From Cymodocea nodosa (Eukaryota > Streptophyta > Magnoliopsida > Alismatales > Cymodoceaceae), in NCBI GenBank assembly GCA_036874045.1, contig CM072340.1, forward strand, positions 5,967,001 to 6,031,000: DNA of 64,000 nucleotides, in the 5' to 3' direction. Under the pieces are notes generated by a model, which saw only the letters and a list, made by a program, of their open reading frames with translations, made no database searches and was not told the origin of the DNA. The translations under genes and the position numbers were made by a program. Every line of letters begins with the position of its first letter. Within the stretch, counting starts at the first letter, position 1. Shown in pieces: positions 33,445 to 60,421 of this stretch.

Positions 33445-34048
33445 TATCTCTTTCAACATCTTTTGACTTTTGATTCTGAAAAACTTTTCATTCACAAATA
33501 AAAGCAGAATATATAACAAAATAACATTTAACAATAAAACATAAATTGTTAAATCAATGTCTTGTGTGAACCCAAACTCCTACGCATTTGGTGGCTTACA
33601 AGCTAGCTAGTTGATTTTCTAAAATAGATACCAACAAATTGGATTGATATTTTGTTTGTTTTTTTTATTATAAAATAAAACAAAAACTAAAAAATTTTCT
33701 TTATTTTCTAAAAATAAATGCAGAGTACACACAACATTAAAAGTACAAAATCACAATTTAAGATTATAATTGAAAAGTAGTGACAAATGGAATAAACGTG
33801 TCAATCCAAGCAAACTTTTTAGGTATAATTCTTATTACCATTAATTCTATTTTAATGTAGTCTGCTTTCCTTTTTAACTTGTAAACTTACGGTATGTTAT
33901 CAATAGTAAATATAAGGGTATTACCATTAATGAATTGAAATGCAAAAAGAGATCCTTTTCTGTTCCTAGATAATGTAGTTGTTTCTATTTCTATATATAT
34001 TTCAATATATTCCTCTTTCCACTTCCATTCATTTAGGTCTTTCATAAT
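33445..34048 (-). other. 3' UTR and F-box tail region of element D
   Basis: Homologous to 48594-49215 of E2. The part next to 34048 probably encoded the last 50 or so residues of the F-box protein, reading on past a TAG at 34049-34051 where E2 keeps a Trp codon. The rest is non-coding, A/T-rich 3' UTR. Confidence 0.6.
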
Positions 34049-34897
34049 CTATATTTGAAATTTCATCAGTTCATCCCACCATCTTATTAGACATAAAGTA
34101 GGATCATCATATTCATTATACCACACTCTTAATTGAATTTTATCATGTTCTATAGACAGTGGTTTAGCTATATCATTAGGTATAGGCAATATTTCTATAA
34201 AGTCATCATCATAAGTGTTTATGCTTACTATGTATAAATCAGATCTAAATGCAACTGATATATCTTTGACTAAATATATATATTCATCAAGTATAACATG
34301 TATGTTGTTAATTAATGTTTTCTGTCCTAGATATATCATAGTGTTTTCAGTCCAAGATCTATTCAAAAAATTATACACACTTAAGCATAAATCCTCATCC
34401 CAATTTTCCATTGGTTTCTAATAATACAATTTTTTAGGAATGGTCGAATTTTTATCAGAAAAAGTTAAAGGTGACCCATAATTTTCAGGTGGTACTTCAA
34501 ATCTATTAGGCCTTCCTATATTCCATTCTTCTCTAGTGATAGAATTTCTAATCAAAATATCAGGTAATAGAATTGCATACCTTGGTTTTGTTCTGTAAAT
34601 AATTAATCATTCATCTATCCCCATAATATGATCTATTCCTTCTAATGTATTGGGAGGAATTCTAGCATTTTCTTCCATATTCAAATATTCATAGCTAATT
34701 GAACTATGATTAAATGATTTCCATAAAAATCCATCTCTAATATTAGTCATCTTTGCAGCTTGTAGTCCATGAAAATATTTTTCTCTAACACATTCTTTAA
34801 TTTCTTTTGACATACAACACAATCTGCACATATCTTTAGTTGATAAGTTACTTAGTACTTCCCTCAATGCATCCAGTGGTAATTTCATCAATTCCAT
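34049..34897 (-). pseudogene. F-box / F-box-associated protein of element D
   Basis: ATG at 34897. One frame runs 282 codons to 34049 with no shift and only two stops, TGA for a Gly codon (34607-34609) and TAG for a Trp codon (near 34403), so this copy is the best preserved. The F-box comes first: LPLDALREVLSNLSTKDM then CRLCCMSKEIKECV. Next is IPPNTLEGIDHIMGIDE, then LIIYRTKPRYAILLPD and SITREEWNIGRPNR, like the 'glory, in YR, LLNPITREW' start of F-box-associated domains. It ends DDPTLCLIRWWDELMKFQI; beyond the stop lies IMKDLNEW. F-box proteins link substrates to SCF ubiquitin ligases through Skp1. The carboxy part would be the substrate-binding half. It lies between gag and the 3' UTR of the retroelement. 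Confidence 0.8.
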
Positions 34898-35111
34898 CTA
34901 TTGTGATTCTGTATAACATAAACAAAATTTAGTAGAGATAAAATTAACATAGCTACTTACATATCCTCGTGGAGTTAGGTCATAACTCAATAAACTAAGT
35001 TCATTAAGTAATAACTCTACGATACTACTAACTATAATTAAACTTACATTTTTTTTCTTTTTATATTTTTCTACTTACTATATTATACATAGTTGCTTCA
35101 ATTATACTATT
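34898..35111 (-). other. gag-F-box spacer of element D
   Basis: Non-coding. Positions 34970-35035 hold the inverted words (cgtggagttaggtcataact, then ttcattaagtaataactcta), matching the spacers in G and E2. Confidence 0.7.
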
Positions 35112-35699
35112 TTATTCAGCTTCCTTCCCAAAGGAGGTATCAATTTCATTAACAATTCTATTGATAAGGTTAGTCACTACTTGTATTGGCAATCCTCCAA
35201 TAAGTTTAATTTCTATTGGTTCCTTCTATCTAGGGAGTATATTTCTATTCATATTATAATTCTGAATGGTAGCATTTCTAAATACATGATCTAGACGATT
35301 GTTTAATTGTTGAATTATCTTTTCTAACTTCTCTATTCTAGATCATTGTTCAATTAATGCTTCATGTCTTATATTTTTGTCATTTATATTTTCTCCTCCT
35401 TGGAAATTGTTATTTCTCCAAGAGTGATTTCTCCAATTAGGATTATAAGAATTTCCAAAGTTATCTTTCTGGTTTCTAGTATAAATAATATTAAGTCATT
35501 AATATTTGCATTCTTTTCTGCTAGCTTTTGATTTAATGATTATTCTTCTATTTTCTTTGTTAAACTCAGTTAATTTAACTTCAAGCATAGTGCTTGAATT
35601 TATTTCATGCATTCCCCATGGCAGTATTCTTTTATCTATAATAGCTTCAACTGAGTTTTCCCACTGTGCAGTTCTTTTTGCAAAGTTTTCTAAGTATGC
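35112..35699 (-). pseudogene. gag of element D, C-terminal part
   Basis: Continuation of the gag gene that begins at 53591 and is split by E2. On the minus strand it reads the segment equivalent to AEAIIDKRILPRG, then ELTKKIE, NINDL, the NW-RNH region, and the coiled-coil-like IEKLEKIIQQLN. It ends GKEAE before TAA at 35112-35114. There is no zinc knuckle. The last five bases (35695-35699, TATGC) are the target duplication of E2. Confidence 0.8.
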
Positions 35700-37856
35700 T
35701 GTTTAGAATGAAAAAGTGCATATTATTAATGGTTAAATGATAGTTAATTACATAATATTTAGCTTATCATATGAGAATTAAGCCATTATGTTATAATTGC
35801 ATTGTTATAAGCTTTAATTAAAGAATCTGCTTAATTTGGGAGAATTAATGTTAATTTAGTACATTTTTGAACTGTCGATAAGTTGCAGGCTGTGAAATTC
35901 TTAAGTATCCAAATTTTCTGATATTTCATACAGTTATGTTTAACATACCGAACATGTATCAGATAGTTATGTTTAAACTACCGAAAAGTTATGTTTTAAA
36001 AGAATAGTTTACTATTTCCTGAAGTACACGTGTTAAAACCATAATGCATGTGTTAAGTGAACTTTCAGTGAGTTATCTATAACTATCCGAAATTGTAGTT
36101 GGGCATCAAATAGTTAGACCTGTAACTCTCCGAAATGTTTCTTTTATTATTAAACTGCTACTAACACGTGTCGTAATCTGGTAGATTTACTTAAGTTATA
36201 TATCGGTGAGTTAAGTTTGTAAGTATCCGAAATGCACCTAAGCATCGGATAGTTAAATTTATACACGTATTGAATTTAAATGCTTTAGTATATCACATGA
36301 GATGCACATGTTTAACTCAAAGTTAGCATAACTGTACGGGTTGAGTTACATGAATATACACTAAGGTAACACGTTATGTTAGCGGCTTATTTCTTTATTG
36401 CACGTGTTTTGTAGTTAAATCAATGAGGTAAGTCCGTTGAGTTATTTGTAACTCCACGGACTATTTATTTTCTAATATGCCACTATAGCAGTTGTAGAAA
36501 TATGACAGTTTGAAGGAAAAACCACGATCGCACGTATCGCTTAGAGAGAAGAAATCATCGTCGTTGATATGAATGAAGGAAATCCAACCGACCATTCAAG
36601 CAAAAGCAGTTACCACTGAAGAAATATAAAAGAAAAAAAGAGAAAAAGAAGAGGGTGTGATCGATGGGTATGGCCAGTGTGTACAAAGAAGCACCGAGCT
36701 TTCTACAGACAGTGTCAGTAATTCTCCGAAGTACCACACCAACCATTATCACCACCACATTATCACTGCCTTATCACCAACCATCAGAGATCTGTGAGGA
36801 TACTTTCCTAATGTCGGGTCGATTTCGAGCCAAACACAGTGCCTCACAACCACTATGAGTGATCGCGTCGCGGGAAGGGAAGCCATTTTCACCAAGTGCC
36901 GACTCATATTTTAGGAGATCGTAAAACTTCTAGCCTTGGTTTCAGGTTGATGCCTGTATGTTGAAGAGGAGATCATCTTGCAATTCTGGACTCGCGATTC
37001 TATAGGGAGAGGAGACAGAATTGTAAGTGGTTTAATTTTCAATGGTGTAATCACGTTGCATGTAGTGACAGAAGTATTTACTATCAGTTGAGATTACTTT
37101 ACATTTCACCTTTCACCCATTTCCATGTTCATATTAAAACAAAAATACCAAAAACAATTTATCTGTGTTTGTATTTTGTATTTGAGTGTTGTATTGTTTA
37201 TGTTGTATCGTGATTAATGTTATCTTTGTCAGTGTTGTGATTGTTTTATGTTTGTTTTAGTTTAACAATTTACTAAAATTAGTTCGTTCAAAAGACTTAA
37301 AGATTTTAATGGTTACTGTTTGAAAGTATTGCTTAATGATAAATTCAGTGTTTACTAATATTAAAGAGCTTAATTGATGTTATTTACAATCTATGGAATC
37401 GCCTAATGGTTAGCTGAATTCCTCTGTAAATAGCAATATTAAAAAAGAAGATAGGCTCGTGGAGTTAATATAAGTCCACGAGTTTAGTTTGTTGAGTTAG
37501 CCATAACTCAACGAACTTTGTCCGTTAAGTTAACTGTAACTCAATGGAGGGTTTATTGAAGATATAAATTTGATTGTTAACAAACGGAACAGTTCTCAAT
37601 TCTTAAGCAATTTCCTGTGGTATCGACCTGTACTTGCACACTAATACAATAGATACTATGCACTTGCAATTAAAATACAAATTGGAATTAATATCTAACT
37701 TTTATTAAAGGTTGTTTGTTTACTTCTATATAAAAAAAAGAATAGGCATAAAGATAAATTAACTAAGTAAAAATAGAAGTTAACAAATCCAAGTTTTTCT
37801 AGTGCGTTGCTGGAGATCCAAACAAGTTTTCTAGTGTCGTGCTAGCCAAGCAAACA
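35700..37856 (+). repeat. 5' LTR of E2
   Basis: 2,157 bp, TGTTTAGAATG ... CAAGCAAACA. It matches the 3' LTR at 50662-52834. In the first 120 or so bases I count about seven differences, mostly transitions. Its right end carries two units of an approximately 33-bp repeat that continues into the primer site. An ORF at 36664-36858 lies in the LTR and is not supported as a gene. Confidence 0.92.
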
Positions 37857-37887
37857 AGTTTTATGGTACCGTTGCTGGGGAATTGAA
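37791..37887 (+). repeat. Tandem triplication across the LTR / primer-site junction
   Basis: Three diverged units of 32-33 bp start with aagtttt at 37791, 37824 and 37856. The first contains gtgcgttgctggagatc, the second gtgtcgtgctagcc, and the third is the functional primer site. Units one and two are part of the LTR, because both recur at the end of the 3' LTR (52769-52834). The first resembles a primer site with one base deleted. Confidence 0.75.
37864..37881 (+). promoter_or_regulatory. Primer-binding site, tRNA-Asp type
   Basis: tggtaccgttgctgggga lies seven bases after the LTR. It matches the reverse complement of the plant tRNA-Asp 3' end except at C-to-T positions (the two sites expected to read tggcgcc and gccgggg). 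Athila elements use this tRNA. Confidence 0.8.
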
Positions 37888-37938
37888 TTAATATAAGCAA
37901 CTGTTAGAGCTATTTCGTTTTAATAGCCAAAGTGTTGT

Positions 37939-39099
37939 GTGTTTTTTTCTATGATTGAGATTATGTCATATGCTTATGCTCAAAGATTTTTGAAACTTGT
38001 AGTTAGCATATGTGAATTCTGCAATTCTGAAGGATACGACATTTCTGACTGTTTGAAACTGAGACGTTTGCAGATGGTTAGATCCCATGAACAACAAATG
38101 AATTATCCTCAGTATAATAGAGCCGAGTATGAGAATCCTATAGTTTACCCAACTGATGATCAGTATAGAATGTATAATATGTTGAGAGACATTGAAGTTT
38201 GGGATAGGTATGACAGACTGGAACGTAGTATAGAGCAAAACCTAGACAAACTAGAATACTTTATGTGTCAGCAACAAGAAGTCAACCAATTAAACTATAA
38301 GGAAGCATATTCAGAACCTAAAAAGGATATAATTTTTGAAACTGAAAAACCCATAATGAAAATTGATCAAAAATTGAATACAATGAGATTAGATGATCTG
38401 GAAAGAAAACTAAAAGCATTGGACAAATATACAATGAAAATACAAGTTATGCAACAGGACAATGAAAATTATAATGTTATAGACTTGCATAATTTGCAAA
38501 ATATACAGCAAATATAAAATATTAATGCAAGAGAATTTAAAGAATGCACTTTAAAACTAAAAACAATTGAAGATCATAATCACGAAAATGATATACCAAA
38601 ACATCATGAGAGTAATGAAAATCTGGAAGATGTATATGTAACATTAAGATCTAGAACTAATATACCACCAAGAACTCAAAATGAAAATAATATGAAGGTG
38701 GATAAGTGTAAAAATCAAAATGATAATGAAAATGTAATAGCTGAAAATCTAGAAATCACTGAATAACAATCTGAATCTACTAATGAAGGTAAAAATGATC
38801 AAACAAATCAAACAAAAGAAAAAGAATCTTTTAAATCACAATCTTTAGCACCCTATCCTGAAAGATTACAACAAACAATACCTGAAAAGCAAGAAAACAT
38901 CAGAGAAATTTTTGAAAAAGTACAAGTTAACATTCCTTTGTTAGATCTATTACAAAAAATGCCACATTGTGCTAAATTTCTGAAGGATTGGTGTACTAAG
39001 AAAAGAGAGCAAAAAGTTCTTAGAAAGCTCTTTTTAGTTGAGCAAAGTAGTTCCCTATTTCTACCATAAATTCCTAAAAAGTTATCTGATCTTGGAATT
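37939..39099 (+). pseudogene. E2 pol N-terminal part: zinc knuckle and linker
   Basis: The frame opens at ATG 37939, just after the primer site. Residues 24-37 are CEFCNSEGYDISDC, a retroviral CCHC knuckle (CX2CX4HX4C) with His replaced by Tyr. A long charged linker follows (RDIEVWDRYDRLERSIEQNL, then an Asn/Glu-rich stretch). It then reaches the block found ahead of Athila proteases: LAPYPERLQQ, VNIPLLDLLQKMP and AKFLKDWCTKKREQ. Stops at 38515, 38764 and 39067 are TAA; the frame itself does not shift. In other Athila elements capsid and knuckle belong to one gag. Here the knuckle heads pol while the capsid is encoded at 46245, so gag is split. Confidence 0.75.
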
Positions 39100-39858
39100 C
39101 ATGTTATATCATGCACCATAGGAAATATCATTCTAGAAAGAACCTTAATAGACTTAGGTGCAGGTATAAATGTTATTCCAAGTGATATATTTGCATCCTT
39201 AGGATTAGAAGGCTTAATTCCTACTAGTACGGTTATTCAATTAGCTGATAGAAGTATAAGATACCCTAAAGGAAAAATAGAGGATGTCTTAATTAAAATA
39301 AAAAACTTTATATATCCTATTGATATTGTAATTTTGGATTCCCAACAAATTAAGTATAAAAATAGTGATACATCTTTAATTTTGGGAAGACCATTTTTAG
39401 CATCATCAGGGGCTGTTATAAATTGTAAAACTAGAGTAATGAAGTTAGCATATGGTAATGAGGATACTCAACTAAATATTTTCAAACCAGAAAGGTTTGA
39501 CGAGTTAAAAATGTCCTTATATGCCATAGACTTTTTAGAGGATGAAGGAGATATGTTAGATGATGTGATTCAAGAAGAATTAAATAAGCAAATCAATTCT
39601 AAAACTTTAGAGGAAAGTGAAAGCATAAATATAGAACGAGATCAGGAAAAAATTAATTTAGAAAATGATGATATTCAATTAGGAGCTCTTGCTTCTGATG
39701 GGCAACATTTAGAATTAAAACATTTACCTCCTGAATTAACCTATATATTTCTGGAAGAGAAACGAACCTGTCCAATCATTATTGCTTCAGATTTAAAAGA
39801 GGATCAAATAGATAAATTAAAAGATGTAGTAAAAAGTTATAAAGAAGCAATAGGATAG
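39100..39858 (+). pseudogene. E2 aspartic protease region
   Basis: Same frame as the knuckle. The active-site loop is LIDLGAGINVIPSDIF (about 39148-39195), the Athila form of the D-S/L-G-A motif. The second conserved element is LILGRPFLASSGAVI (about 39376-39420). This enzyme would cut the polyprotein. A linker of about 110 residues (rich in Glu, Asp and Asn) follows, with LKHLPPELTYIFLEE near its end, a known bridge to RT in Ty3 elements. The stop at 39856 (TAG) replaces a Trp codon. Confidence 0.85.
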
Positions 39859-41330
39859 ACTATGACTGATATAAAAGGGTTAAGTTCAACTTTATGCTGT
39901 CATCACATATATTTAGAAGAGAATGCTAAACCTATTAGAATTCCTAAGAGGAGATTAAATCCAAACCTTAAATAAGTAGTCAGGAAAGAAATAGTGAAAT
40001 GGTTAGATAATGACATAATTTATTCGATTTCTGATAGCTCATGGGTTAGCCCAATCCATGTAGTTCCCAAGAAATCAGGATTAACATTTATTAGGAATGA
40101 AAGTCAAGACTTGATACCTACTAGAATTCAATTAGGCTGGAGAGTATGTATAGACTATAGAAAGCTAAATGCTTTGACTAGGAAATATCATTTTCCCCAA
40201 CCTTTTATAGATCAAATGTTGGAAAAATTAGCAGGGCAAGAATATTTCTGTTTCCTAGATGGGTATTCAGGTTATAATCAAATTCTAGTAGCATTAGAGG
40301 ATCAAGAGAAAACAACTTTCACCTGTCCTAATGGAACTTATGCTTTTAAGAGAATACCATTCAGATTATGTAATGCACCAACTACCTTTCAAAGGTATAT
40401 GCAGGGCATATTTACTAGAATGACTGAAGATTTTTTGGAAATATTTATGGATGATTTTACTATATATGGCAACTCATATGAAGTCTGTTTAAAAAAATTA
40501 GACTTAATATTAAAACGCTATGTGAAAAAAAATCTGGTTTTGAATTGGGAAAAATGTCACTTCATTGTTAAACAAATAGAAGTAATTTCTAATCTACCAG
40601 AACCTAAATCAATAAAAGATATTAGATCCTTTCTAGGACATGTTGGTTTTTATAGAAGATTTATTAAAAACTTTAGCAAAATAGCTAGACCTTTAACTAA
40701 TCTATTAAAAAATGTCCCATTCAACTTTGATAAAAATTGCGATGAAACATTTTTCAAACTTAAATCTAGCTTAATTTCAACTCCTATAATTCAAGCACCT
40801 GATTGGAGTCATACATTTGAATTAATATGTGATGCATCTGATTTTGTTGTAGGAGCAGTATTGGGATAGAAGATAGAAAAATCTCCTAGAGTGATTCATT
40901 ATGCAAGCAAAACCTTAAATGATGCTCAAGTTAATTATACAACTATTGAAAAAGAACTATTAGCTGTTGTGTTTGCCTTAGAAAAGTTTAGATTATATCT
41001 GATTGGAGCTAAAGTAATAGTATACATGGATCATTCAACTTTAAAACATCTAATAACAAAAAAAGAGACTAAGCCGAGATTGATCTAATGGATATTATTA
41101 TTACAAGAATTTGATTTAGAAATTAAAGATAAAAAAGGTTGTGAGAATGTAGTAGTAGATCATTTATCAAGATTACAAATAGAAAAATCAAATATTGAAA
41201 TTAAGGATAATTTTCTTGATGAACAATTAATGACCATCAACACAATACCTTGGTATGCAGACATAGTTAATTACTTAGTTACTAGTTTAACACCTAAGGA
41301 TTGGAATAGATAGGATAAGAAATTGTTTTC
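39859..41330 (+). pseudogene. E2 reverse transcriptase and RNase H
   Basis: Ty3-type RT: RRLNPNLK, then VRKEIVKWLDNDIIYSISDS, SWVSPIHVVPKK, GWRVCIDYRKLNALT, FCFLDGYSGYNQI and the catalytic FMDDFTIYGNS (about 40447). After KCHFIVKQ the sequence jumps directly to IEVISNLPEP (about 40579). The connection usually found there (a GIVLGH..S..G..VD segment of about 20 residues) is gone, an in-frame deletion. RNase H follows: first Asp in ELICDASDF, Glu in [16 protein letters not shown], Asp in [10 protein letters not shown] and last Asp in VVDHLSRL. Stops at 39973, 40867, 41086 and 41311 fit single-base transitions of Gln, Glu or Trp codons. Together these enzymes copy the RNA into DNA. Confidence 0.9.
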
Positions 41331-42546
41331 TCAAGAGTAAAATATTACAATTGGGAAGACCCATACTTATTTAAGAAATGTCCTGATCTGGTTTTAAGGA
41401 AGTGTGTTCCAGAAATTGAATATCAGAGCATATTGTCTTTCTGTCATGACCAAGCTTGTGGAGGGCATTTTGGCTCTAGGAAAACAACTGCAAAAATTCT
41501 GTAATGTGGATTTTATTGGCCAACACTATTCAAAGATGCTCATAAATATTGCTTAAGTTGGGATGTCAACAAATAGGAAGAATATCAAAGAGGAATATGA
41601 TGCCTCTTAATCCTATTGTTGAGGTTGAAATCTTTGATGTGTGGGAAATAGATTTTATGGGTCCATTTCCTATGTCTAACCAATTTAATTACATATTGTT
41701 GGGGGTGGATTATGTATCTATATGGATAGAAGTTATTCCTATAAAAACTAACGAGAACAAAGTGGTAATACAATTTATAAGAACCAATATATTTGCCAGA
41801 TTTGGAATACCTAAAGCTATTATCAGTGATAGAGGAACTCATTTCTGTAATAGAAGTTTTGAAGCCTTAATGAAGAAATATGGAGTAAACCACAAAATTG
41901 CAACATCATATCATCTACAAACAAGTGGACAAGTATAAAGTGCTAACAAACAAATTAAGTTAATCTTAGAAAAAGTAGTAAATCCTACTAGAACAGATTG
42001 AGCTAATAGATTGATAGATGCACTTTGGGCTTATAGAACTACTTATAAAACATGCTTAGGTATGTCACCTTTTAGGCTAGTATATGGAAAAAGTTGTCAT
42101 TTACTAGTTGAAATAGAACATAAAGCTTATTGGGCATTAAAAACTCTGAACACTAATTTAAATCAAGCTGTAGAAAATAGAAAAATGTAATTAATTGAAT
42201 TAGAAGAATTTAGAAATGAAGCTTATTCGAAGACTGTAAGAGAAAAACAGAAAATGAAATTCTGGCATGATAGAAAAATTATTCCAAAAAACTTTGAAAT
42301 AGGACAAGAAGTATATCTTTATATGGCTAGCTCCATAACCATCTAGGAAAATTAAGATCTAGATGAGCAGGACCTTACATAGTTCGAAATATTTATCCTT
42401 ATGGAGCTATTGAAATTGAAAATCTTAAAAATCAGAATATATTTAAAGTAAATAGACAAAGACTTAGACCTATTTTGAAAACACCAAAAAGCTCCTTTGG
42501 AATTATAGAAGAAGTCAGAGTAGAGGACTACTCGAGCTTTACTTAG
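41331..42546 (+). pseudogene. E2 integrase
   Basis: The HHCC zinc-binding domain is visible: CHDQACGGHFGSRKT with a following Cys pair near 41550. The catalytic core has Asp in WEIDFMGPFP (about 41650) and Asp in ISDRGTHF (about 41825). The third catalytic residue, the Glu normally after TSGQV, is a TAA stop (41936-41938). Downstream are [23 protein letters not shown] and a C-terminal end IIEEVRVEDYSSFT before TAG at 42544. At least two frame shifts occur. The protein would insert the DNA copy and make a 5-bp duplication, consistent with the TATGC flanks. This copy could not have done so in its present form. Confidence 0.85.
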
Positions 42547-43093
42547 TAAGAAATTAGTTTTTATGTTGATATACAAAATAATAATAATAATAATTTAAAT
42601 TTATAAAATATAAAAAATCGTTGCAGTTCAACCAATCGGATCCAACGGTATGATCGGAACATAAAAATATCTATATTAATTTTAAGAAAAAATGTTGGTT
42701 TTACCGAAACATACTATCGGTTCAATCGAAAAAAAAAAAAGGTCTGACCGAAACATAGTATCGGTTAAATCGGTAAGAAACAGAGAAACTATTATCTTAA
42801 GTATTTTTATTATTATATATATTTGTTTGTACAGGAAGTCCATTGAGTTATGCTTAACTCAACGAGCTTACTCCGTTGAGTCTTGAGTTAGTCAACGAGC
42901 TTAGTCCATTGAGTTAATTGTAACTCAATGGAGTACTGTAGCTAAGACCGCGGATGAGAGAGTAATAGTTGGTTCAGAAAATGACTTGATTACTTGCCTA
43001 AACTTAGGGCTTATTTAAACTAAAACCTAGGGTTTTGGGGGCATTATCCGGCAAACCATTTGGAATTTAGAACAATAGAAATCAGAGCGATTC
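42547..43093 (+). other. Integrase-ORF3 spacer of E2
   Basis: Non-coding. Positions 42610-42780 have TCGGTTNAACCGA-type words (tatcggttcaatcgaaa, gtatcggttaaatcggt). Positions 42838-42935 have inverted CGTTGAGTTA / TAACTCAACG words (gagttatgcttaactcaacg). Near 43020, ctagggttttgggggcatta precedes ORF3. Equivalent to 8707-9420 and 62185-62922. Confidence 0.8.
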
Positions 43094-45320
43094 GTGCTGT
43101 TGTGTAACTCCACGATGAGGAAGATGACACTTGAGTTCTGGGAAGATGCAGTTGACATAACACAGTTTCTGAAGGAATTAGAGGAATGGCACACGTGCCA
43201 AAAGATTCGGAATATGATAAGAGAAAAAGAGTTACAGAAGATAGAATTTGAACTTTTTAGATTAAGAAGAATGTTAGTAGATTGTGGTATACAAATACCC
43301 CAGATAATGGAGACACGAATCAGAGTAGCAACAGAAATTGCAGTTAGTAAAGAAAGAAAAATCAGGTCAAACAATGAAGTAGCCCTAGAGCTAATCTAGT
43401 GCAAGGCAAGATTATGGTTCAAAAGGTGCATTGCTGGTCATGGAAGTTGGGAAATATGGCGCTAGCAACAAGCAGGAGAACGGGAAGAACCAACTGCTGA
43501 AAGACCTATTCCTGAGGAACAACAGTCAAGACCTCCAGTTCAACCAACAAAGCCATTGCCACGAGTAGCATTTGCTTGGCCGAGAACTGTTGAAGAAGAG
43601 AAAGAGTTTGCTAGCTTGGTCAAAACAACAAGAGACCAAGGTGACGACGAAAGAATAGCTACATCTAAGGTACATATTTTATATGATGCCATTAAGAAAA
43701 GAAGGGTCGAAGAAAAGTTGAGGGCCCAGTACAAAATTAAGGTTGAACAACATCAGGCAGCAGCTAAATCAAGTGGTGCAAAAGAAGCTGAAGCTAGTCC
43801 TTCGAGACCAGCAATTATTGGAAAAATTAAATAGGAAGAGCTAGTACCTGTGGTTCAAAGGCGTGCATAGCCTTTATTTTTATATTTAATCTCAGATGAA
43901 GAAGAGGAAGAACAGGCACAATAATCACACGAAAGGAAAAGAGATAGTGCCTGAGTATCAAAAAGAGATTAAATCTGAGGTACCAATGTCAACAGGGCCT
44001 GTGGAGCCAATTTTTATAAACCTGCTATCTGATTTTGAGGAGGAGCAACAGTAGCAGGAGCAAAAAGAAGAAGAAAAACAGGCTAAAATTAGTTTGCAGC
44101 CTATACAAGAAGAAGAAACAGAAATTAGGGCAGAAACTGAATTGCCCGTGACTCCATCCCAATTTGCCACAGAATCAGAAAGAACAATGACAAAGCAGAT
44201 TGGTAGTCAGGAGGAAGAAGAAAGAGCAGAAAATGAAGAAGTTGAACGAAGCTATTTGCACAAAAATGACTTTGCAGATTCCATTGAAGAGCAAGAAACT
44301 CTTCAGCAATTTATGGAAAGAATTCAAGATAGAGTGGAGTGTTCTACCGGCTCACCACCATAGACAAAAGTAGAAGCAAAAATTCAGGAATCTATAGAAC
44401 ATGTTCAAGTGCGGCAAATGGTAGAGGAAGATCAAGAACAAACCCCTCTGGAACAACAAAGTCACATTCTTGACTCGATTGAAATAACAGTTTTGAATGA
44501 AGTATATTTTTGGAGTTAGGAAGCTTATAATAAATATCAAGAGATTAGGGGTTATGATATTATTTACAGTAGACCAGTAAATTGGGATGGAATGCAAGCA
44601 ATCAAAGAATTATTTGAGTTCCAAGGTCTACTGAAGTTTATTTATCAAGAAAGAGGGCATGCAGTATATGAGAATCTAGTGCCCTATTTTTATGCAAATT
44701 TGAGAGAAAAAGAAGGAAAATTAATTTCCAACGTGGAGAAAGCTGATGTACAGATAACACTAGAGCTTCTCCACAACATTTTTGGATTGAAGAATGAAGG
44801 ACAGGAAATGTTGGAAAGTACAACTACCGTTGAATGGACAGAATAGGAAATCAATGACAGTTTGGCTATCAATCCTAGTGTGCCTTTATTAAATAGACTG
44901 AAGCATTTAAATGGTAAAGCACACATGGTAGCCAACATTTTGATTAAGAATGTCTATCAACGACAAGACCATGACATAGAATTGAGTCAATTTGTCAAAT
45001 AGGCCACGTTTACAGTTGTCAATAGAATTCCAATAAATTGGACTGCAGTTTTTATCTCCAAGCTGAGAATAGTGAAGAAGAAATTGTTTTATGGAGATTT
45101 GATTCCACTACTGATGGTGGATTGTATTGATTTCACGAAATGGGCATCAAAGAGAATCAAATCAAGAACCATTTCAGTGAAAGAGTACAAAAATTTTGTA
45201 GCTACAGAAATAGTCGTATCTTCTGGAGGAATTACAAGAGCTGTAGAGAGAATTAATCAATTAGAGCTACAATTAGAAAAACTCCAGAAGAAAGTAGATG
45301 AATTGAGGAATAGAGACTAA
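43094..45320 (+). pseudogene. ORF3 (accessory protein) of E2
   Basis: About 740 codons, with one frame shift (between 43834 and 44094) and several stops. N-terminal block: LEFWEDAVDITQFLKELEEW, then RKIRSNNEVALELI and RLWFKR. A Pro/Glu linker leads to PRVAFAWPRTVEEEKEFASL and a basic helix (KKRRVEEKLRAQYKIKVEQH). The middle is strongly acidic and Gln-rich (44070-44480). The conserved domain follows: GYDIIYSRPVNWDGMQAIKE, LFEFQGLLKFI, YANLREKEGKLISNVEKADV and LLHNIFGLKNEG. After DLIPLLMVDCIDFTKW comes a short coiled coil (INQLELQLEKLQKKVDELRN). It resembles the 'putative plant transposon protein' family. It occupies the env-like position of Athila, but no signal peptide or membrane span is seen. 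Copies exist in B, D and G, and a relative in J. Confidence 0.8.
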
Positions 45321-46244
45321 ATTGTATTGTTCGTCTACTTGTATAGAATTGTATGAAGATTGTATGATGTAATTGTAATATAAATTGATTCATATTAATG
45401 AATATAAATTTTTCAGATGTACTGTTCATACATGTTTTAAATGTGAAATGAATGGAATTTATTGAATGTTATATAATTTGTGGAACATTATGAATGAATG
45501 TTTAACAGATTTACAATTTGCTGAATGACAGGATGATGCTTGAAAATTTCTGCATGTTGCAAGGTAAAATGTAAATTCTGCATAACATAAAATGACTTGC
45601 AAGTTAAATATTTATATAATGTTCAGATTTAAATGAATTTTGAGTAGAATGATGCATTAATGACAAAGATTTAACTTTATTTCAATTAGCAGAATGCAAG
45701 AAAAAAAAAAAAACCTTAGAAGTTGCTAAGTGTTAACTCAACAAAGTAAATTCGTTGAGTTAAATGTAACTACACGAGGTCAATAATATAATATAAGGTC
45801 ACTCCGTTGAGTTATCCATAACTCAACGAAGTTAGTCCGTGGGGTTAGCAATAGTAACCGACATTATTTCGTTGAGTTATCTGTAACACAATGAGGTTAG
45901 TTCATGGATTAAGTAGAATGGTTATTCTTTTAATCACGAACGAAACTTCGTCGGTTTAGCGGTTACCAAAATTTGAAATTAATAGTGATACACATACCCA
46001 TAAAAATAGGAACCATGCTGCACATTGCAAGACACGTTCTTGCAACGAGATTTATTCACTTTATAGATGTGTTATATATATAAAACAAAATGTTATTTAC
46101 GAGTTATCAACACTTTTAAAAGTAAGAAGAAAAGCGTTGGGGGAACTAGAAGGAGAAGCAGCAGATTCGACTTGATCCGTCAACAAATATTTACTGAATG
46201 AAAAGCTTCAAACTAGTATGTAATTAATCTTTTGTTATTTATTT
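45321..46244 (+). other. ORF3-gag spacer of E2
   Basis: Non-coding, 0.9 kb. Positions 45725-45915 hold the inverted-repeat array (tccgttgagttatccataac followed by tcaacgaagttagtccgtgg, and relatives). A donor-like gtatgtaat at 46217 is conserved in G (20832) and D. It may mark a splice site or only conserved leader sequence. Confidence 0.75.
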
Positions 46245-47584
46245 ATGAGCACATGGACTCGTTCTCTAAGCACTAAACGATTAGTAAGAACACCTACCTA
46301 GGAATATTCAACACAGAGGAGTACTGAAACATTTTTTGAATTGGACTTTAACGAAATTCTTTGGGGTGTAGCTAACTTTTCTTTAAAAGAGAACGTAGAG
46401 ATGACTACTCCAGTAGAAAAACCATTAGGAGAAATTCTGTATCCTGAATTAGTTGATGGACCTTCATGTATTTGATTGCCAAACTTTGAGGGAGATAGGT
46501 TTGAACTGAAATCTAATTATATTAGTCAATTGCCACATTTCATGGATTAGAAAGGGAGGATGCCTATTATTTCCTTAGAGAATTTAACGAAGTTTGTCAA
46601 ATGATGAAAATGCCGAACATGAGTATAGATGCTATTAAACTTAGATATATCCCTTTTTCTTTAAAAGACATAGCTAAGAGATGATTATATACTCTATCGC
46701 CTGATTCAATTTCTACATGGACTGAATTTTGCTTTGTTTTTCTAGAAAAATATTATCCAACACATCAAACGATTAAAAAGAAAAAAGAAATATTAATGTG
46801 TAGCCAAAAACAGGGTGAATCATTCTGGAAATATTTTGAAAGATTTAAAGATTTACTGACTCAATGCATCATGCAATGAGTAAAGCACAATTAATAGGTA
46901 TAATTTATGAAGGCATAGATGTTTCAATGAAATCTTTATTAGAATCTACTTGTCAAAATGGATTTCTGAAACTTTGTAGTGAAGAAGCATGGGCATATTT
47001 AGAAAACTTTGCAAAAAGAACTGCACAATGGAAAAACTCGGTTGAAGCTATTTGTTGATAAAAAAATATTGCCAAGAGGAATGCATGAAATAGATTCAAG
47101 TACTATGCTTGAAGTGAAATTAACTGAATTAACAAAGAAAATAGAAGAGTTATTATTAAATAAAAAACTAGTAGAAAATAATGCAAACATTAATGATTTA
47201 GATATTATTTATGCTCGAAACTAAAAAGATAACTTTGGAAATTCTTATAATCCTAATTAGAGAAATCACTTGAATTTATCTTGGAGAAAAAACAATTTCC
47301 AGGGAGGAGAAAATGTAAATGAGAAGAATATAAGTTATGAAGCATTACTTGAATAAGGATCTAGAATAGAGAAATTAGAAAAGATAATCCAACAATTAAA
47401 CAATCGTCTAGATTTTGTATTTGGAAATGCTGCAATTCAAAATTAAAATAGAAATATACTACTTAGACAGAAGGAATCAATGGAAGTTAGACCTACTGGA
47501 GGATTGCTAATACAAGCAATACCTAACCCTGTCAATAGAACTATTAATGAAATTGATACCTCTACTAGGAGGGTAGCTGAATGA
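46245..47584 (+). pseudogene. Athila-type gag capsid protein of E2, located 3' of pol
   Basis: ATG at 46245 (MSTWTRSLSTKRLVRTPT, then a TAG), stop at 47582. Capsid motifs are EILYPELVD, LPNFEGDRFELKSNYISQLP, EDAYYFLREFNEVCQMMKMP, AIKLRYIPF, ESFWKYFERFKDLLTQC, AQLIGIIYEGIDVSMKSLLE and EAWAYLENFAKRTAQW. The later part has ELTKKIEELLLNKKL and IEKLEKIIQQLN, likely helical. There is no CCHC knuckle. Shifts occur near 46545, 46865 and 47055. The protein would form the particle shell. Placement after integrase and ORF3 is very unusual for a Ty3 element: it would need its own spliced or internally started RNA, or internal translation. Its length (about 446 codons) equals that of the copy in G. Confidence 0.9.
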
Positions 47585-47759
47585 AGCAGCGTATCTAAAA
47601 CAACTATCTGTATATATATGTTTTTAGTATCGTAGAGTTAGTCCTTAACTCAAGGAACTTAGTCCATTGAGTTATGCCTTAAACTCCACGAGGGTGTGCA
47701 GTAGTTATGTTAATTTTTGTTTCTGCTAAATTTTTGTTTGTGTTATACAGAATTGACAA
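47585..47759 (+). other. gag-F-box spacer of E2
   Basis: A 175-bp non-coding gap. Positions 47630-47695 hold cgtagagttagtccttaact, tccattgagttatgcct and ctccacgagg, the same word family as in the other spacers. Confidence 0.7.
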
Positions 47760-48758
47760 ATGGAATTGATGCAAGTATCGTTGGATGCACTAAGGGAAGT
47801 ACTGAGTAAATTGTTAGCTAAAGATCTATGCAGACTATGTTGTGTATCAAAGGAAATTAAAGACTGTATTGAAGAAAAATACTTTCAGAGACTAGAAGCT
47901 GCAAAAATGACTAAGATTAGAGATGGATTCAAATGAAGGTCATTTAATTGTAGTTCAATTAACCATGAATATCTGACTATGGAAGAAACTACTAGAATTC
48001 CACCTAATACATTAAAAGGAATATATCATATTATGGGGATAGATGAAGGATTAATCATATACAGGACGAAACCAAGGTATGCAAGTCTATTACTTGATAT
48101 TTTGATAAGAAATCCTATAACAAGAGAAGAATGGTATATAGGAAGACCTAATAGATATGAAGTACCAACTGTAAATTGTGGGTCGGCTTTAATATTTTCT
48201 GATAAAAATTCTACAATTCCTGAAAAATTATATTATTGGAGACCTACAGGAAATTGGGGTGAAGATTTACGCATAAGTGTGTATAATTTTCTGAATAGAT
48301 TTTAGACTGAAAATATTATGATATATCTAGGACAAAATCATTAATTAACAATATGCATGTCATACTTGATGGATATGTATATCTAGTCACAGATATATCA
48401 ATAGCATTTGGATTTGATTTATACATAGTGAGCATAGACTGTTATGATGAATATATAGAAATTTTACCTATACCGAGAGATAGCTAAACCACCATCTGTA
48501 GAATTTGATAAAATTCAAATAGGAATTTGGTATAATGAATATGATGATCCTACTTTATGTTTGATAAGATGGTGGGATGAACTAATGAAATTTTAAATAT
48601 GGATTATGAAAGACATAAATGAATGGAAGTGGGAAGAGGAGTATATTGAAATAGATGTAGAAATAGAAACTACTACATTACCTTGGAACTGAAAAGGATC
48701 CCTTTCTGCATTTCATATCATTAATGGTAATAAATACACTTGTATTTGGAATTTATAA
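47760..48758 (+). pseudogene. F-box / F-box-associated protein of E2
   Basis: ATG at 47760. The intact gene would be about 330 codons, ending TAA at 48756. F-box: SLDALREVLSKLLAKDL then CRLCCVSKEIKDCI. Next come IPPNTLKGIYHIMGIDEGL, IIYRTKPRYAS, NPITREEWYIGRPNRYEVP, KLYYWRP and EDLRISVYNFLNR. A frame shift follows near 48340. The end has YDDPTLCLIRWWDELMKF, then IMKDINEWKWEEEYIEI, which strongly recalls the 'W-V-M-K-E-Y ... W.K' core of plant F-box-associated domains. TGA/TAA stops replace Trp or Gln codons (for example 47935, 48303 and 48594). Known F-box proteins pick targets for ubiquitination via Skp1/Cullin. Whether this one binds Skp1 is inference. It lies 175 bp after gag and is last before the 3' UTR. 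Confidence 0.8.
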
Positions 48759-50647
48759 TATATTACATGTTTACAAATTAAGAAGGAACAAGAACTGCAT
48801 TAAAACAGAATTAATAGCAAGAAGAATTATGCCTAAAAAGTTTGTTTGGACTGACACGTTTATTCCATTTGTTTCTACTTTTCAATCATGTTCTTAAGTT
48901 GTGATTTTGTGTGTTTAATGTTGTGTGTAGTCTACATTAATTTTTTGAAAGAAAAAAGAAAAAATTTAGTTTTAGTTTATTTTATAAAAAAAAAAACAAA
49001 AACAAAATATCAATCCAGTTTGTTGGTATTTATTCTGAGAAACCAACTGGCTTGCTTGTGAGCCACTAAAGGCATAGGAGCTTGAGTTCCACACAAGACA
49101 ATGATTTATCAATATATGTTAAATGCTATTTTGTTATATATTTTGCTTTTATCTATGAATGAAAAGTTTTTCAGAATCAAAAATCAGAATATGCAAAAGG
49201 AGATACAAACGAAACAAGGTATGCAACTGATTACTTATCCTGAATTTAAATTTAAACTCATTTGTTGAGTTACGTGCTAAATTAACGAAACTGTATTCAT
49301 GCTTCCTACAATTATTGTATTTATTGTCAAATCTTTTACATTGAGGACAATGCAAAATGTAGGTATGGGGGGAGGTAATTAAAGTAACAGCCATGTAAGT
49401 TTGTTAATTAAAGGAATTAAAATGGTACTGCAAAGTTTGGTGGAAATTGAAAATTTTTATGAACTTGCTGTAGCTATCCGATAATTGAGACTGTAAAAAT
49501 TTTATAAACTGTAATTGCTTGAATGTTATATTTAGAAGACTATATAAGATGCTATAGAATTTACTATTTATGCAAATCTAGATATAGAATAAACTGTTTT
49601 TTCTGAATTTCATGATTTTAACAGTTTCACGATTTTAAAATGAAATCAGAATGCTTAATGAGAAAAATTATCTGAAGTCCTGAAGGAGTTGAAATATGAA
49701 TTCTAGATTAAATGAAGCACATATGATTAAAGATACATTTAATTTGACTATTAAACTTGTAGAATGATTTATGTGTAGATCTTATTAAACTACATAAAGA
49801 GTATGAGCTTATTGTTATGGATTCATATTTTCAATAAATGATATAAGTAGGACTATATGAGATTGGTGTTTTATTGCATATGTATTAATGAAATACGTAC
49901 ATATACAGTATGTGATTAATGTTTTTGTTGTGATTGAAAAAAAAAAAAATTTGAGAGTTTATTGACTTGTTTGATCACGAGCCTTTTGTACTTGAGTAGA
50001 TAGATATGTAAGGATTGTTGACCTCAAAAAGGACTCTTGAAATCTGGCAACCTAAGATCCTGATCAGATCTGGGATTGTTGACTGAAAGCTCGTTATATG
50101 GGTACATTAGGAAGCTCTTGTATGATTCAAGCTTGTCAAATTAACTTTTAAAGTACAAAAAAATACATATACTGTTCTGAAAAGATACAAGTATTTTGTG
50201 AAATACAGATATCTTATGAATCGAGTATATTTTCTGTTATCTAGAATTGCTGAAATATGAATCTAAGAATTGACTTTTGAAGTTGTTTTAATGGAGATAC
50301 AATTCTTTATTCTACTTGTCTTACTCATATTGAATTGGATTGTACTTTGATTCGTATGTTGTTGAAATTTCTTCTAAAAATCTTATTGGAAAATTCAAGA
50401 TGACAGATGATGAAAGGAAGAACAAATGATAATATAATTAATACCTATGTGATGATGATATACTTTGTATGTAATTTGCATATATTCTAAGTATATTTGC
50501 AGGTTGATTGCTGAAACATACAGAATATCTATATGATAATACTAGTTCTTATGCTGAACAGAAAAAAAAGGGGGGAAGAATTAATTCTAGCACTTTTAGA
50601 AAGACCAATTAATTAGATCTTAGTTTGCTAAGAGACTAGCAAAATTT
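48759..50647 (+). other. 3' UTR of E2
   Basis: About 1.9 kb, non-coding. It has a small TTGAGTTA word at 49262, T/A runs, and the conserved approach to the polypurine tract (tagaaagaccaattaatt). The equivalent in D received solo LTR E, and that in H received Harbinger M. Confidence 0.75.
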
Positions 50648-50661
50648 AGGTATAGGGGAAG
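50648..50661 (+). promoter_or_regulatory. Polypurine tract of E2
   Basis: aggtataggggaag directly before the 3' LTR. Confidence 0.9.
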
Positions 50662-52834
50662 TGTTTAGAATGAAAAAGTACATATTATTAACGGTTAAAT
50701 GATGATTAATTGCATAATATTTAGCTTATCATATGAGAATTAAGCCATTATGTTATAATTACACTGTTATAAGCTTTAATTAAAGAATCTACTTAATTTG
50801 TGGGAATTAATGTTAATTTAGTACATTTTTGAACTGTCGGTAAGTTGCAGGCTGTGAAATTCTTAAGTATCCAAATTTTCTGATATTTCAGACAGTTATG
50901 TTTAACATACCAAACATGTATCGGATAGTTATGTTTAAACTGCTGAACAGTTATGTTTTAAAAGAATAGTTTACTATTTCCTGAGGTACACGTGTCAAAA
51001 CCATAATGCATGTCTTAAGTGAACTTTTGGTGAGTTATCTATAACTATCCGAAATTGCAGCTAGGCATCGGATAGTTAGACCTGTAACTCTCCAAAATGT
51101 TTCTTTTATTATTAAACTGCTACTGACACGTGTCATAATCTGGTAGATTTACTTAAGTTATATATTGGTGAGTTAAGTTTGTAGGTATCCAAAATGCACC
51201 TGAGCATCGGATAGTTAAATTTATGCACGTGTTGAATTTAAATGCTTTAGTATATCATGTGAGATGCACATGTTTAACTCATTAAGTTAGCATAACTGTA
51301 CGCGTTGAGTTACATGAATATACACTAATGTAACGTGTTATGTTAGCGGCTTATTTCTTTATTCCAGGTGTTTTGTAGTTAAATCAACAAGGTAAGTCTG
51401 TTGAGTTATCTGTAACTCCATGGACTATTTATTTTCTAATATGCCACTGTAGCGGTTGCAGAAATAGGACAGTTGGAAGGAAAAACCACGATCGCACGTA
51501 TCGTGCAGGGAGAAGAAATCATCGTCGTTGATGTGAATGAAGGAAATCGAACTGACCATTCAAGCAGAAGCAGTTACCACTAAAGAAATATAAAAGAAAA
51601 AAAGAGAAAAAGAAGAGGGTGTGATCGATGGATATGGCTAGTGTGTACAGAGGAGGAGTACCAAGTTTTCTACAGACAGTGTCGGCAATTCTTTGAAGTA
51701 CTACACCAACCATTATCACCACCATATTATCACCACCTTATCACCAACCATCAGAGGTCTGTGAGGATACTTTCCTGATGTTGGGTCGATTCCGAGCCAA
51801 ACATAGTGTCTGACAACCATTGTGAAGAGTGATCGCGTCACGAGAAGGGAAGCCATTTTCACCAAGCGCCGACTCATATTTCAGGAGATCGTAAAGCTTC
51901 TAGCCTTGGTTTCGGGTTGATGCTTATATGTTGAAGAGGAGATCATCTTGCAATTCTGGACTTGCGATTCTATAAGGAGAGGAGACAAAATTGTAAGTGG
52001 TTTAATTTTCAATGGTGTAATCGTGTCGTATGTAGTGACAGAAGTATTTACTGTCAATTGAGATTACTTTACATTTCACCTTTCGCCCATTTCCATGTTT
52101 ATATTAAAACAAAAATACCAAAAATAATTTATTTGTGTTTGTATTTTGTATTTGAGTGTTGTATTGTTTGTGTTGTATCGTGATTAATGTTATCTTTGTC
52201 AGTGTTGTGATTGTTTTATGTTTGTTTTAGTTTAACAGTTTACTAAAATTAGTTCGTTCAAAGGACTTAAAGATTTTAATGGTTACTGTTTGAATTATTT
52301 GAATGTTAGTATTGCTTAACGATAAATTCAGTGTTTACTAACATTAAAGAGCTTAATTGATGTTATTTACAATCTGTGGAACCACCCAATGGTTGGCCAA
52401 ATTCCTCTGTAAATAGTAGTATTAAAAAGAAAAGGCAGGCTTGTGGAGTTAATATAAGTCCACGAGGTTAGTCCGTTGAGTTAACCATAACTCAAGGAAC
52501 TTTGTCCGTTAAGTTAACTGTAACTCAACAGAGGGTTTATTGAAGATATAAATTTGATTGTTAACAAATGGAATAGTTCTCAATTCTTAAGCAATTCCCT
52601 GTGGAATCGACTTATACTTGCACACTAATACAATAGACACTGTGCACTTACAGTTAAAATACAAATTGGAATTAATATCTAACTTGTATTAAAGGTTGTT
52701 TGTTTACTTCTATATAAAAAAAAGAATAGGCATAAATTAACTAAGTAAAAACAGAAGTTAACAAATCCAAGTTTTTCTGGTGCGTTGCTGGAGATCCAAA
52801 CAAGTTTTCTAGTGTCGTGCTATCCAAGCAAACA
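50662..52834 (+). repeat. 3' LTR of E2
   Basis: 2,173 bp, TGTTTAGAATG ... CAAGCAAACA, then target duplicate TATGC. It includes the first two units of the junction repeat (52769-52834), which shows that they belong to the LTR. Confidence 0.92.
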
Positions 52835-53591
52835 TATGCCCATGCTTCTTCATTACATAGTTTTAAAAGTCCATTCTGACAAGTAGATTCTAATAAAGAT
52901 TTAATTGAAACATCGATGCCTTCATAAATTATACCTATTAATTGTGCTTTATTCATTGCATGATATGGACATTGAGTCAGTAAATCTTTAAACTATTCAA
53001 AATATTTTTAGAATGATTCTCCCTGTTTTTGGCTACACATTAATATTTCCTTTTTCTTTTTAATCGTTTGATGTATTGGATAATATTTTTCCAGAAAAAC
53101 ATAGCAAAATTCAGTTCAAGCAAAAATTGAATTAAGTGATAAAGTATATAACCATCTCTTAGTTATGTATTTTAAAGCAAAAGGAATATATCTAAGCTTA
53201 ATAGCATCAATACACATGTTCGGCATTTTCATCATTTGACAAACTTCGTTAAATTCTCTAAGGAAATAATAGGCATCTTCTCTTTCTAATCCATGAAAGT
53301 GTGGCAATTGACTAATATAATTAAATTTTAGTTCAAACCTATCTCCCTCAAAGTTTGGTAATTGAATACATAAAGATTCATCAACTAGTTCAGGATACAA
53401 AATTTCCTCTAATGGTTTTTCTACTAGAGCAGTCATATCTTCGTTCTCTTTTAAAGAAATGTAGCTACACTCCTAAGGATTTCGTTAAAGTTCTCTTCAG
53501 AAAATTTTTTAGTATGCTTCTGTGTTAAATAATCCCATTTAGGTGTTCTTACTAATCATTTAGTGCTAGAAGAACGAGTCCATGTGCTCAT
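52835..53591 (-). pseudogene. gag of element D, N-terminal part
   Basis: Minus-strand ATG at 53591 (MSTWTRSSST...). Capsid motifs: EILYPELVDESLCIQLPNFE, GDRFELKFNYISQLPHFHG, EDAYYFLREFNEVCQMMKMP, AIKLRYIPFALK, and toward 52840 AQLIGIIYEGIDVSIKSLLE then KLCNEEAWAY. At 52835 it is interrupted by E2 and continues at 35699. The region between the two ORF pieces (about 52960-53115) is frame-shifted but aligned. Here too gag lies downstream of ORF3 (54078-56089). Confidence 0.85.
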
Positions 53592-54077
53592 AAACTCTTA
53601 ACATAAAGTAAAAATGCAGAAGATTAATTACATACTAGTCTGAAGCTTTGTTCTTAGTAAGTAGTTGTTGACGGATGAAGTTGAATCAGCTACCTCTTCT
53701 TCCAGTTCCCCAATGAATTTTCTTTTTTCTCCTCAAGTACTGGTAATTAGTAAATAACATTTTGTTCTATATTTATAATGCACGTCCATAAGGCAAATGA
53801 ATCTTGTTGTAAGAACGTGTCTTGTAACGTGCAGTATAGTTCCTATTTTTATGGACACTTGCTCTACTCATATTAACTTCTATATTTCATTTCCTACATG
53901 TCATCAACTCAAATAAAGTTAAATATAAAAGTTAGAATATGGAATTAGTGCTTTATATTTAACTTTCAGTTCAATACCAGCAATGTAGAAATTAAATTTT
54001 ACTTTTCAGTATATAGATATGTTCAGATATTATCCAATCATTGTGCATTTAACCATGTCATTCAATAAATTTTGAAA
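53592..54077 (-). other. ORF3-gag spacer of element D
   Basis: Non-coding and shorter than in E2 or G, because a deletion has removed the end of ORF3 and the inverted-repeat array. The conserved gtatgtaatt site before gag (minus strand, about 53635) remains. Confidence 0.65.
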
Positions 54078-56089
54078 TGGATGTCCATTTCGTGAAGTCA
54101 ATTCCTTCTTCCATTAATACTAGTATTAAATCTCCATAAAATAACTTTTTCTTTATTGATTTGAGCTTGGAGATGAATACTTTGAACCAATTTACTTGTA
54201 TTCTGTTAACAATTGCATATGTGGCTCACTTGACAAATTGACTTAGTTCAATGTCGTGGCATTGTCTTTGATAAATAGTCTTCACCAATATGGTTGCCAC
54301 CATGTGTGCCTTTCCATTTAATTACTTTATTCTATTAAGTACTGGCACACGAGAGTCACTAGCTAAACACTACTTAATTTCCTATTCAGTCCATTCCACT
54401 ACAGTTGTTTCTTCCAGGATTTCAATTCCTTCATTTTTCAATCCAAATATGTAGTAAAGAAGCTCAATTGTTATTTGAATATTAACTTCTTCCACATTAG
54501 AAATTAAATTTCCTTCTTCCTCTCTTAAATTTGCATAAAAGCAAGGCACTAAATTTTCATAAACAGCATGCCCTTTTTCTTTTGAAATAAAGTTTAGTAG
54601 GCCCTAGAATTTGAATAATTCTTTAATCTCCTCCATTCTAATCTAATCTACTGGCTTATTGTAAATAATATTATACCCCTTTATCTCTTGATATTTGTTG
54701 TATGCTTCCTGACTCCAAAAGTGAACTTCATTTAGAATAATCGCTTCAGATGGGTCATGAATTTGGATTTGTTGCTCTAGAGGGGTTTGTTCTTGAATTT
54801 CTTCAATTTGCTGAGCTTGTTGTATTTCTTGCTGAAAATAATCTGGAGATTCTTGCTCTTCTGCTCTAAATTGTTATGGAAAGGCTGTAGAACTTTCCAC
54901 ATTTTTATCTTGAATTTTCTCCATAAGTTGCTGAAGAGTTTCATTCTCTTCAGTGGAATCTATTGAATTCTTTTTTTCTTGTTCAACTTCCTGCTCAACT
55001 TCTTCTTGACTACTAATCTGCATTGTTACTATTCTTTTTGATTTTGTGGTAGATTGGGATAGAGTCACGAGCATAGTATATTTTGCCCTATCTTCAGTTT
55101 CTAATTCCTCAAGCTACAAACTAATTTCAACCTGTTTTTCTTCTTTTCTTTGCTCCTGCTCTTCCTCTTTAGATTTCGATAATAAATCCACAAAAATGGG
55201 CTCTTTATGCCCTACTGTAAACATTATAGGTTTAGGTTTAATTTCTACTTGAGCTTCAAGTACTATCTCTTTTCCTTTTCTTTTTCTTAATAGTTGTGCT
55301 TGATCTTCTTCTTCAGATAACAGGTCAACCAGAATGGGCTCTTTAGGCCCTCAAGCCATAGGTCTGGCTCTTCCTGTTTTATTATTTCTATAATTATTGG
55401 TCTCGAAGGACTAGCTTGTACTTCTTTTACAATTGTTGTTCTAACTGCTTCTTGGTGTTTTTCCACCTTAATTTTTTATTGGGCCCTCAACTTTTCTTCA
55501 GTTCGTTTTTTCTTAATGGCGTCATACAAAATATGTGCCTTGGCCAAAGCCATTTCCTCACTATCTCCTTGGTCTTTTGCTGTTTGACCAAGCTGGCAAA
55601 CTCCTTGTCTTCTTCTTTAGTTCTCAACCAAGCAAATGTAACATGTGGTAATGGTTCTGTTGGTAGAACTGAAGGTCCTACTTGTTGTGCTACTGTAGCT
55701 GGCATTTCTGCTTGCTCTCTTAACTGTTGCTACAAAGATTCAGGCCATTGCTCTTGTTTTTCTTACTCTCTTTGTTCTTTAAATTGTTGATAAGCTGCTT
55801 TTGCAGCTATCTTCTTTACAAACCACAATTGAGATTTCCTTCTTATGAGTTCTAGGGCAACTTCATTGTTTGGCTTGATTTTTCTTTTTCTACTTACAGC
55901 AATTTTAGTTGCTACTCATATTCTTGTTTCCATTAGTTAAGGTATTCTAACATTCAAATTTACTAGTTTTCTGATAAAGGAGAATAGATCATCATCTACC
56001 TTTTCTAGTTGCAGTTCTTTCGTGGTGTTTCTGATCTTTTACTTGGAATGTCATTCTTTTGACTGTCTAAGAAATTCGGTGGTGTCAAA
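54078..56089 (-). pseudogene. ORF3 of element D, main part
   Basis: Homologous to E2 ORF3 on the minus strand. N-terminal parts near 56000; PLPHVTFAWLRTKEEDKEFASLVK (55660-55590); the Glu/Gln-rich middle (55320-54780); the conserved domain with KELFKF, FYANLREEEGNLISN and LLYYIFGLKNEG (54650-54420); and LILVLMEEGIDFTKWTS near 54080. The C-terminal coiled coil is deleted. Stops and shifts are frequent. Copia P is inserted near its start, so the first codons lie at 62156-62184. Confidence 0.8.
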
Positions 56090-60000: not shown

Positions 60001-60035
60001 GCTACCTTCCATTTGCCTACACCAAAGGCAATCTA

Positions 60036-60420: not shown

Positions 60421-60421
60421 T

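Follow-up and report, generated by a model that had tools for sequence, protein, structure and literature searches.

The E2 Element and Its Neighborhood

The window considered here, that is, the whole stretch of 64,000 nucleotides from Cymodocea nodosa, is rich in nested elements. By eye, the ORFs at 12192-13043 are DDE (Harbinger-type) transposase-like, and those at 58478-60853 on the minus strand resemble parts of a Ty1/copia element. At the center of this account is E2, a single LTR element, together with two relatives, D and G. Their features are as follows (positions are those of the window):

35700-52834, plus strand: E2, the whole LTR element, with an LTR pair and TATGC duplications
35695..35699, no strand: TATGC target-site duplication, left
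35700..37856, plus strand: 5' LTR, 92% identity to 50662-52834
37864..37881, plus strand: tRNA-Asp-type primer site TGGTACCGTTGCTGGGGA, 3/18 mismatches
37927..38517, plus strand: start of the pol ORF with the CCHC (NC-like) module, ATG at 37963, capsid absent upstream
39070..39858, plus strand: protease region (Asp_protease_2 E 0.001, below the Pfam cut-off)
39976..40869, plus strand: reverse transcriptase and start of RNase H (RVT_1 E 7e-27, RT_RNaseH_2 E 3e-8)
41546..42546, plus strand: integrase, core at 41546-41938, last frame to 42546 (rve E 5e-15)
43079..45320, plus strand: ORF3, broken (PF20167 below cut-off; dN/dS 0.11-0.32 among copies)
46072..46085, plus strand: TATA-like block upstream of gag, TTATATATATA or TTATAAATATA in 7/7 copies, altered in L063; putative promoter
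46216..46221, plus strand: donor-like GTATGT before the gag ATG, GTATGTAATTAAT in 7/7 copies and in L063; putative splice site
46245..47584, plus strand: gag (capsid) gene behind integrase and ORF3 (Retrotrans_gag), premature stops
47760..48897, plus strand: F-box ORF, broken (F-box E 3e-7; E 9e-11 in L040)
50650..50661, plus strand: polypurine-tract-like stretch, read by eye
50662..52834, plus strand: 3' LTR, 92% identity to 35700-37856
52835..52839, no strand: TATGC target-site duplication, right
52834..55688, minus strand: D, ORF3 (55688-54080) and first part of gag (53854-52834)
33445..35699, minus strand: D, remaining gag and F-box ORF, severed from the first part by E2
18997..22766, plus strand: G, with ORF3, gag and F-box

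A first-pass annotation of this DNA had placed the capsid gene of E2 after integrase and ORF3, and the domain search agrees: the gag frame, from the ATG at 46245 to a stop ending at 47584, contains a Retrotrans_gag domain at 46685-46876 (E 3e-11), beyond the ends of integrase (42546) and ORF3 (45320). None of the three frames gag, ORF3 and F-box is intact in E2; the gag frame is open in L063 and, in L041, open from inside. The annotation also held that the ends of E2 are fixed and that it is not two elements assembled, which is borne out by the 92% LTR pair, by TATGC on both sides and by the recurrence of the order elsewhere. A repeated motif of the gttgagttaNNNNtaactcaacg type occurs both in the LTRs and in the spacers on either side of gag (45715-45960, 47630-47690).

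At the 5' end, the CCHC frame is open from 37927 and has an ATG at 37963. The pol ORF, with CCHC first, lies within ∼100 bases of the primer site, leaving no room for a capsid between the two. In E2 a Tyr replaces the His of the knuckle, and conservation across the four CCHC positions is 29, 24, 27 and 20 of 29 relatives; across the six 5' modules compared, the C, C and H are invariant. The primer site was scored against an 18-mer that we take to be the tRNA-Asp-type reference, and its unmutated form, TGGCGCCGTTGCCGGGGA, is found in 3/29 relatives.

E2 is inserted within the gag of D. As the annotation had noticed, D (on the minus strand) and G share the order ORF3-gag-F-box, and both are among the seven copies that keep GTATGTAATTAAT and the TATA-like block ahead of the gag ATG. 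The gag places L062 and L063 are also E2-type, with gag fused to the F-box ORF or with the F-box ORF next: L062:632-2662 holds the fused gag and F-box frames as a single 677-codon open frame, and in L063 the F-box ORF behind gag (1987-2994) is open over 336 codons, stop to stop.

Position of gag across the Genome

The search covered one genome of 374 Mb in 28 contigs, recognisable as a plant's by its elements. A 681-base query spanning the junction (end of the LTR, primer site and part of the CCHC ORF) was matched over nearly its full length at 40 places, the one in E2 among them, with 92-100% identity; a single 40-base fragment also matched (best 40 of 4217 candidates). The primer site runs unbroken into the CCHC ORF in 40/40 scored E2-type 5' ends, and a capsid-sized insertion occurs in 0/40; this continuity, together with the frame opening at 37927, upholds the claim that the CCHC knuckle sits alone at the start of pol.

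Because these 40 5' ends had been picked by similarity to the same junction, 5' ends found via protease homology were also read. All nine of them (L047, L049, L050, L052, L054-L058) have an ORF that starts with the CCHC module, and capsid is absent upstream in the fetched stretch; L057 is the single E2-like case, and L051, another pol ORF, was left out of the nine with its start cut. A primer site with 0-4/18 mismatches is present in 7/8 scanned 5' ends and absent from L055 (L058 lay outside the scan). Relatives carrying gag next to the primer site, which the annotation had named as the finding that would speak against it, amount to 0/40 scored E2-type 5' ends and 0/9 others.

When E2-type copies were fetched by position, gag was as expected in 5/8 (L039, L040 with an insertion, L041, L043 and L045), and the remaining three (L042, L044, L046) run into other sequence. 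In L045, positions 4693-5001 are an LTR stretch in inverse orientation after the E2-type 3' internal end. E2 and most of the copies read are broken.

The relation of gag to protease was also scored directly, a linked pair being defined as both within 12 kb on the same strand, taken from the best 150 of 4640 gag and the best 81 of 6522 protease candidates. Gag lies downstream in 10/10 linked pairs, starting 2.5-4.0 kb past the protease match, and before protease in 0/10; with scoring confined to the best candidates (81 of 6522; 150 of 4640), gag-first relatives may be missed. The gag-first arrangement adjoining PR that marks Ty3/Gypsy and Athila elements was found in none of the elements examined here.

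Families That Share the Order

Could E2, D and G derive from one rearranged locus? They do not, as the order is found at other E2-type loci and in three further families, named I, II and III in a grouping of our own. None of the eight top Retrotrans_gag loci (L001-L008) is E2-type, and in each of them integrase lies immediately upstream of gag. Family I comprises L001 and L003-L006, with L049, where gag is again behind integrase; family II comprises L002, L007 and L008, with its 5' half in L047; family III is represented by the 5' ends L055 and L056 and by L060 and L061, 3' ends of the same elements, in the same order with gag behind integrase. In families I-III gag follows INT directly, whereas E2-type elements have ORF3 between (PF20167 below cut-off). 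A CCHC of its own is present in the 3' gag of families II and III and absent from that of the E2-type and family I.

The gag proteins of the E2-type and of families I, II and III are 42-56% identical and colinear, and RT identity among E2, I, II and the L050 element is 57-71%. The CCHC module of L050 resembles that of family III (55/132 identical). A family-I element on contig C3 has LTRs 94-96% identical and GTTAA on both sides, with pol first and gag last. Two LTRs, a target-site duplication and a primer site, the marks of an LTR retrotransposon, are found both in this element and in E2. The Ty3/Gypsy order PR-RT-RNase H-INT is present in E2, L047/L002, L049 and L067. In L049, a 409-base tandem duplication (4567-5383, 99% identical) lies in the RNase H/integrase part of the family-I element.

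One type departs from this pattern. The L052/L067/L053 element (contig C8) has an LTR pair and a CCHC-first pol complete to integrase, and no capsid was detected in it (best gag E 0.12); it would need Gag in trans. A small ORF stands before its 3' LTR (L053:311-640).

Selection on gag and the Other Frames

Between the diverged family-I copies L005 and L001, gag has a dN/dS of 0.05 at a dS of ∼2, and the differences by codon position are 38/23/99 (p 6e-14). Gag thus works, or long worked, from its downstream position. For E2-type gag the values are 0.30-0.34 against G (the most diverged), 0.31-0.40 against D and 0.46-0.78 in closer pairs, near the spacer-frame background of 0.25-1.00. The pairs from families II (0.38) and III (0.35) are too close to tell. 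The 5' ORF gives 0.27 and 0.35, codon-position counts being uninformative in its near copies, and the F-box ORF gives 0.40-1.32, a range that does not demonstrate selection.

Silent-site divergence against G is 0.27 for gag and 0.85 for ORF3 (E2-type subfamilies, with different reference copies). That gag is the less diverged of the two, in a comparison of 43079-47584 with G and D, suggests that the gag block was exchanged between E2-type subfamilies.

Public Relatives and the Breakpoint

For the start of family-II pol, 1448 public relatives were found, and 13 of the best 120 carry YNPxWRN, a motif of the gag end. In 13/13 carriers it lies upstream of protease within one ORF, and CCHC is present in 9/13. 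Most of the eleven public relatives compared run on from YNPxWRN via PNP and TLRSGK to protease; the 3' gag described here stops shortly past a PNP-like motif, with the pol ORF picking up again close to TLRSGK or APYPxRLR. The start of the 3' gag resembles public gag starts (M..W.RD..T.RL), which marks it as a whole unit. The expression "split gag", used in the annotation, calls for caution: the 3' gag is whole, from start codon to PNP-like end, and the 5' CCHC is a separate NC-like module. A homology between this module and the C-terminal half of gag is at most weakly indicated (one tblastn match, E 2e-4, and alignments).

Public proteins similar over PR are mostly without a family name. For residues 1-190 of the family-II pol ORF, 0 relatives at E 0.001 were found among 61 candidates in a short-exact-word search, which distant relatives could escape. 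A gag search with L063 gave four matches at E 0.001 among 4538 candidates, in contigs under 4 kb, and searches of plasmids and viral contigs gave no match.

How Gag May Be Made

The gag frame begins some 220-480 bases beyond the integrase frame in L005, L002 and L061 and 3.7 kb beyond it in E2, with stops between the two, which makes fusion or frameshifting an unlikely general route of expression. Gag is probably made from a separate RNA, with motif-level hints of splicing or of a promoter: besides the elements upstream of E2-type gag, acceptor-like CAG sites occur in the spacers of families I and III. The donor-like GTAAGT of the LTR is intact in 18/23 copies, which is an ordinary rank and no special conservation. 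Had gag arrived with its own leader, a relict primer site might stand before the 3' gag; none was found in six spacers, where the best candidates have 9-10/18 mismatches, as in shuffles.

Comparison with Known Systems

Several systems share part of this picture. Foamy viruses make Gag and Pol from different RNAs and have an internal promoter, as is proposed for the elements here, but gag is their first gene, and their spliced RNA gives Pol, not Gag. Ty3 elements with other changes of order, such as the Gmr1-like ones, altered their domain order while the element spread; there, however, INT moved within pol and gag remained first.

The closest likeness is to Athila, Calypso and Diaspora, plant Ty3/Gypsy elements with long LTRs, a tRNA-Asp-type primer site, the order PR-RT-RH-INT and, in some, an env-like or other ORF behind INT. 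The difference is that their known members are gag-first, whereas gag is behind INT here. Of the marks of the Athila lineage, the tRNA-Asp-type primer site is found here. It is reported for both Diaspora and Calypso (PMC1142308), Diaspora has one gag-pol ORF (PMC1142308) and Arabidopsis Athila is listed with gag before pol (PMC2410132), in line with the annotation's statement that known Athila elements have gag first; the Ty3/gypsy order is likewise given as GAG-PROT-RT-RH-INT (PMC6317226). As to expression, BARE1 of barley, a Ty1/copia element, offers a precedent in a plant retrotransposon, with a spliced subgenomic RNA encoding only Gag (PMC3735527), although its gag stands first, in a single ORF, and it does not belong to Ty3. 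Searches of the open-licence literature brought up no description of gag behind integrase, and priority is uncertain.

Interpretation

Taken as a whole, the evidence makes it likely that E2 is a decayed representative of an Athila-like clade of Ty3 LTR retrotransposons whose order is NC-PR-RT-RH-INT-(ORF3)-Gag, with Gag coming from its own subgenomic mRNA. The element would read LTR-PBS-[CCHC module-PR-RT-RNaseH-INT]-(ORF3)-gag-(F-box)-LTR. Gag would have been transferred whole to its place behind integrase, a move whose direction and mode we infer, and the CCHC module would be what remained before protease; in this order pol is the first ORF of the genomic RNA. The Gag mRNA could be spliced from an LTR transcript, or an internal promoter could give rise to it in E2-type elements, and the Gag:Pol ratio would then be set at the RNA level.

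Other explanations have to be weighed against this one. That E2 arose in the assembly, or is two elements nested one in the other, might be suspected in a window where nested elements abound, yet it is hardly credible given its LTR pair and TATGC duplication and the same order at other loci and in other families, one with its own GTTAA duplication. A more substantial proposal is that the capsid-less 5' end belongs to non-autonomous elements, the 3' gag being a captured passenger and Gag being supplied in trans by gag-first elements that the searches missed. Parasitic gag-less elements are known, as PMC3735527 describes for BARE2, the L052/L067/L053 element would need such a supply, and E2-type gag shows little selection between close copies. 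Even so, this is improbable: gag stands behind integrase in the E2-type and in families I, II and III, colinear at 42-56% identity, it precedes protease in none of the ten linked pairs, and its dN/dS in family I is 0.05.

It may also be that the order is real and that the full-length RNA itself serves for translation of Gag, through internal entry or reinitiation, with no separate RNA. The short spacers of families I-III, some 220-480 bases from the INT frame to the gag frame, would suit such a mechanism, and the splice and promoter signals are unproven. Against it are the 3.7 kb, including ORF3, that intervene in E2-type elements and, at the level of motifs, the TATA-like and donor-like sequences kept before gag and the acceptor-like CAG sites in the family I and III spacers, and we regard it as unlikely.

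A broader form of the preferred reading, a gag-pol inversion throughout the clade, has about an even chance of being correct in all its parts. An NC-Pol polyprotein would be made from the genomic RNA and Gag from a subgenomic one; one branch would have added ORF3, an internal promoter and the F-box gene around gag, and the L052 branch would have lost gag and be living on Gag in trans.

Implications

To our knowledge, retroviruses and LTR retrotransposons in general have gag first, an order bound up with the way their Gag:Pol ratio is fixed. Pol-first elements may be scored as gag-less where annotation looks for GAG upstream of PROT; in a 2019 survey, GAG was not identified in 159 of the Ty3/gypsy elements, and this was ascribed to divergence and mutations (PMC6317226). 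Pol-first families with a selected gag in last place mean that the gag-first order is breakable in elements still spreading, and they offer a test case for control of the ratio at the RNA level.
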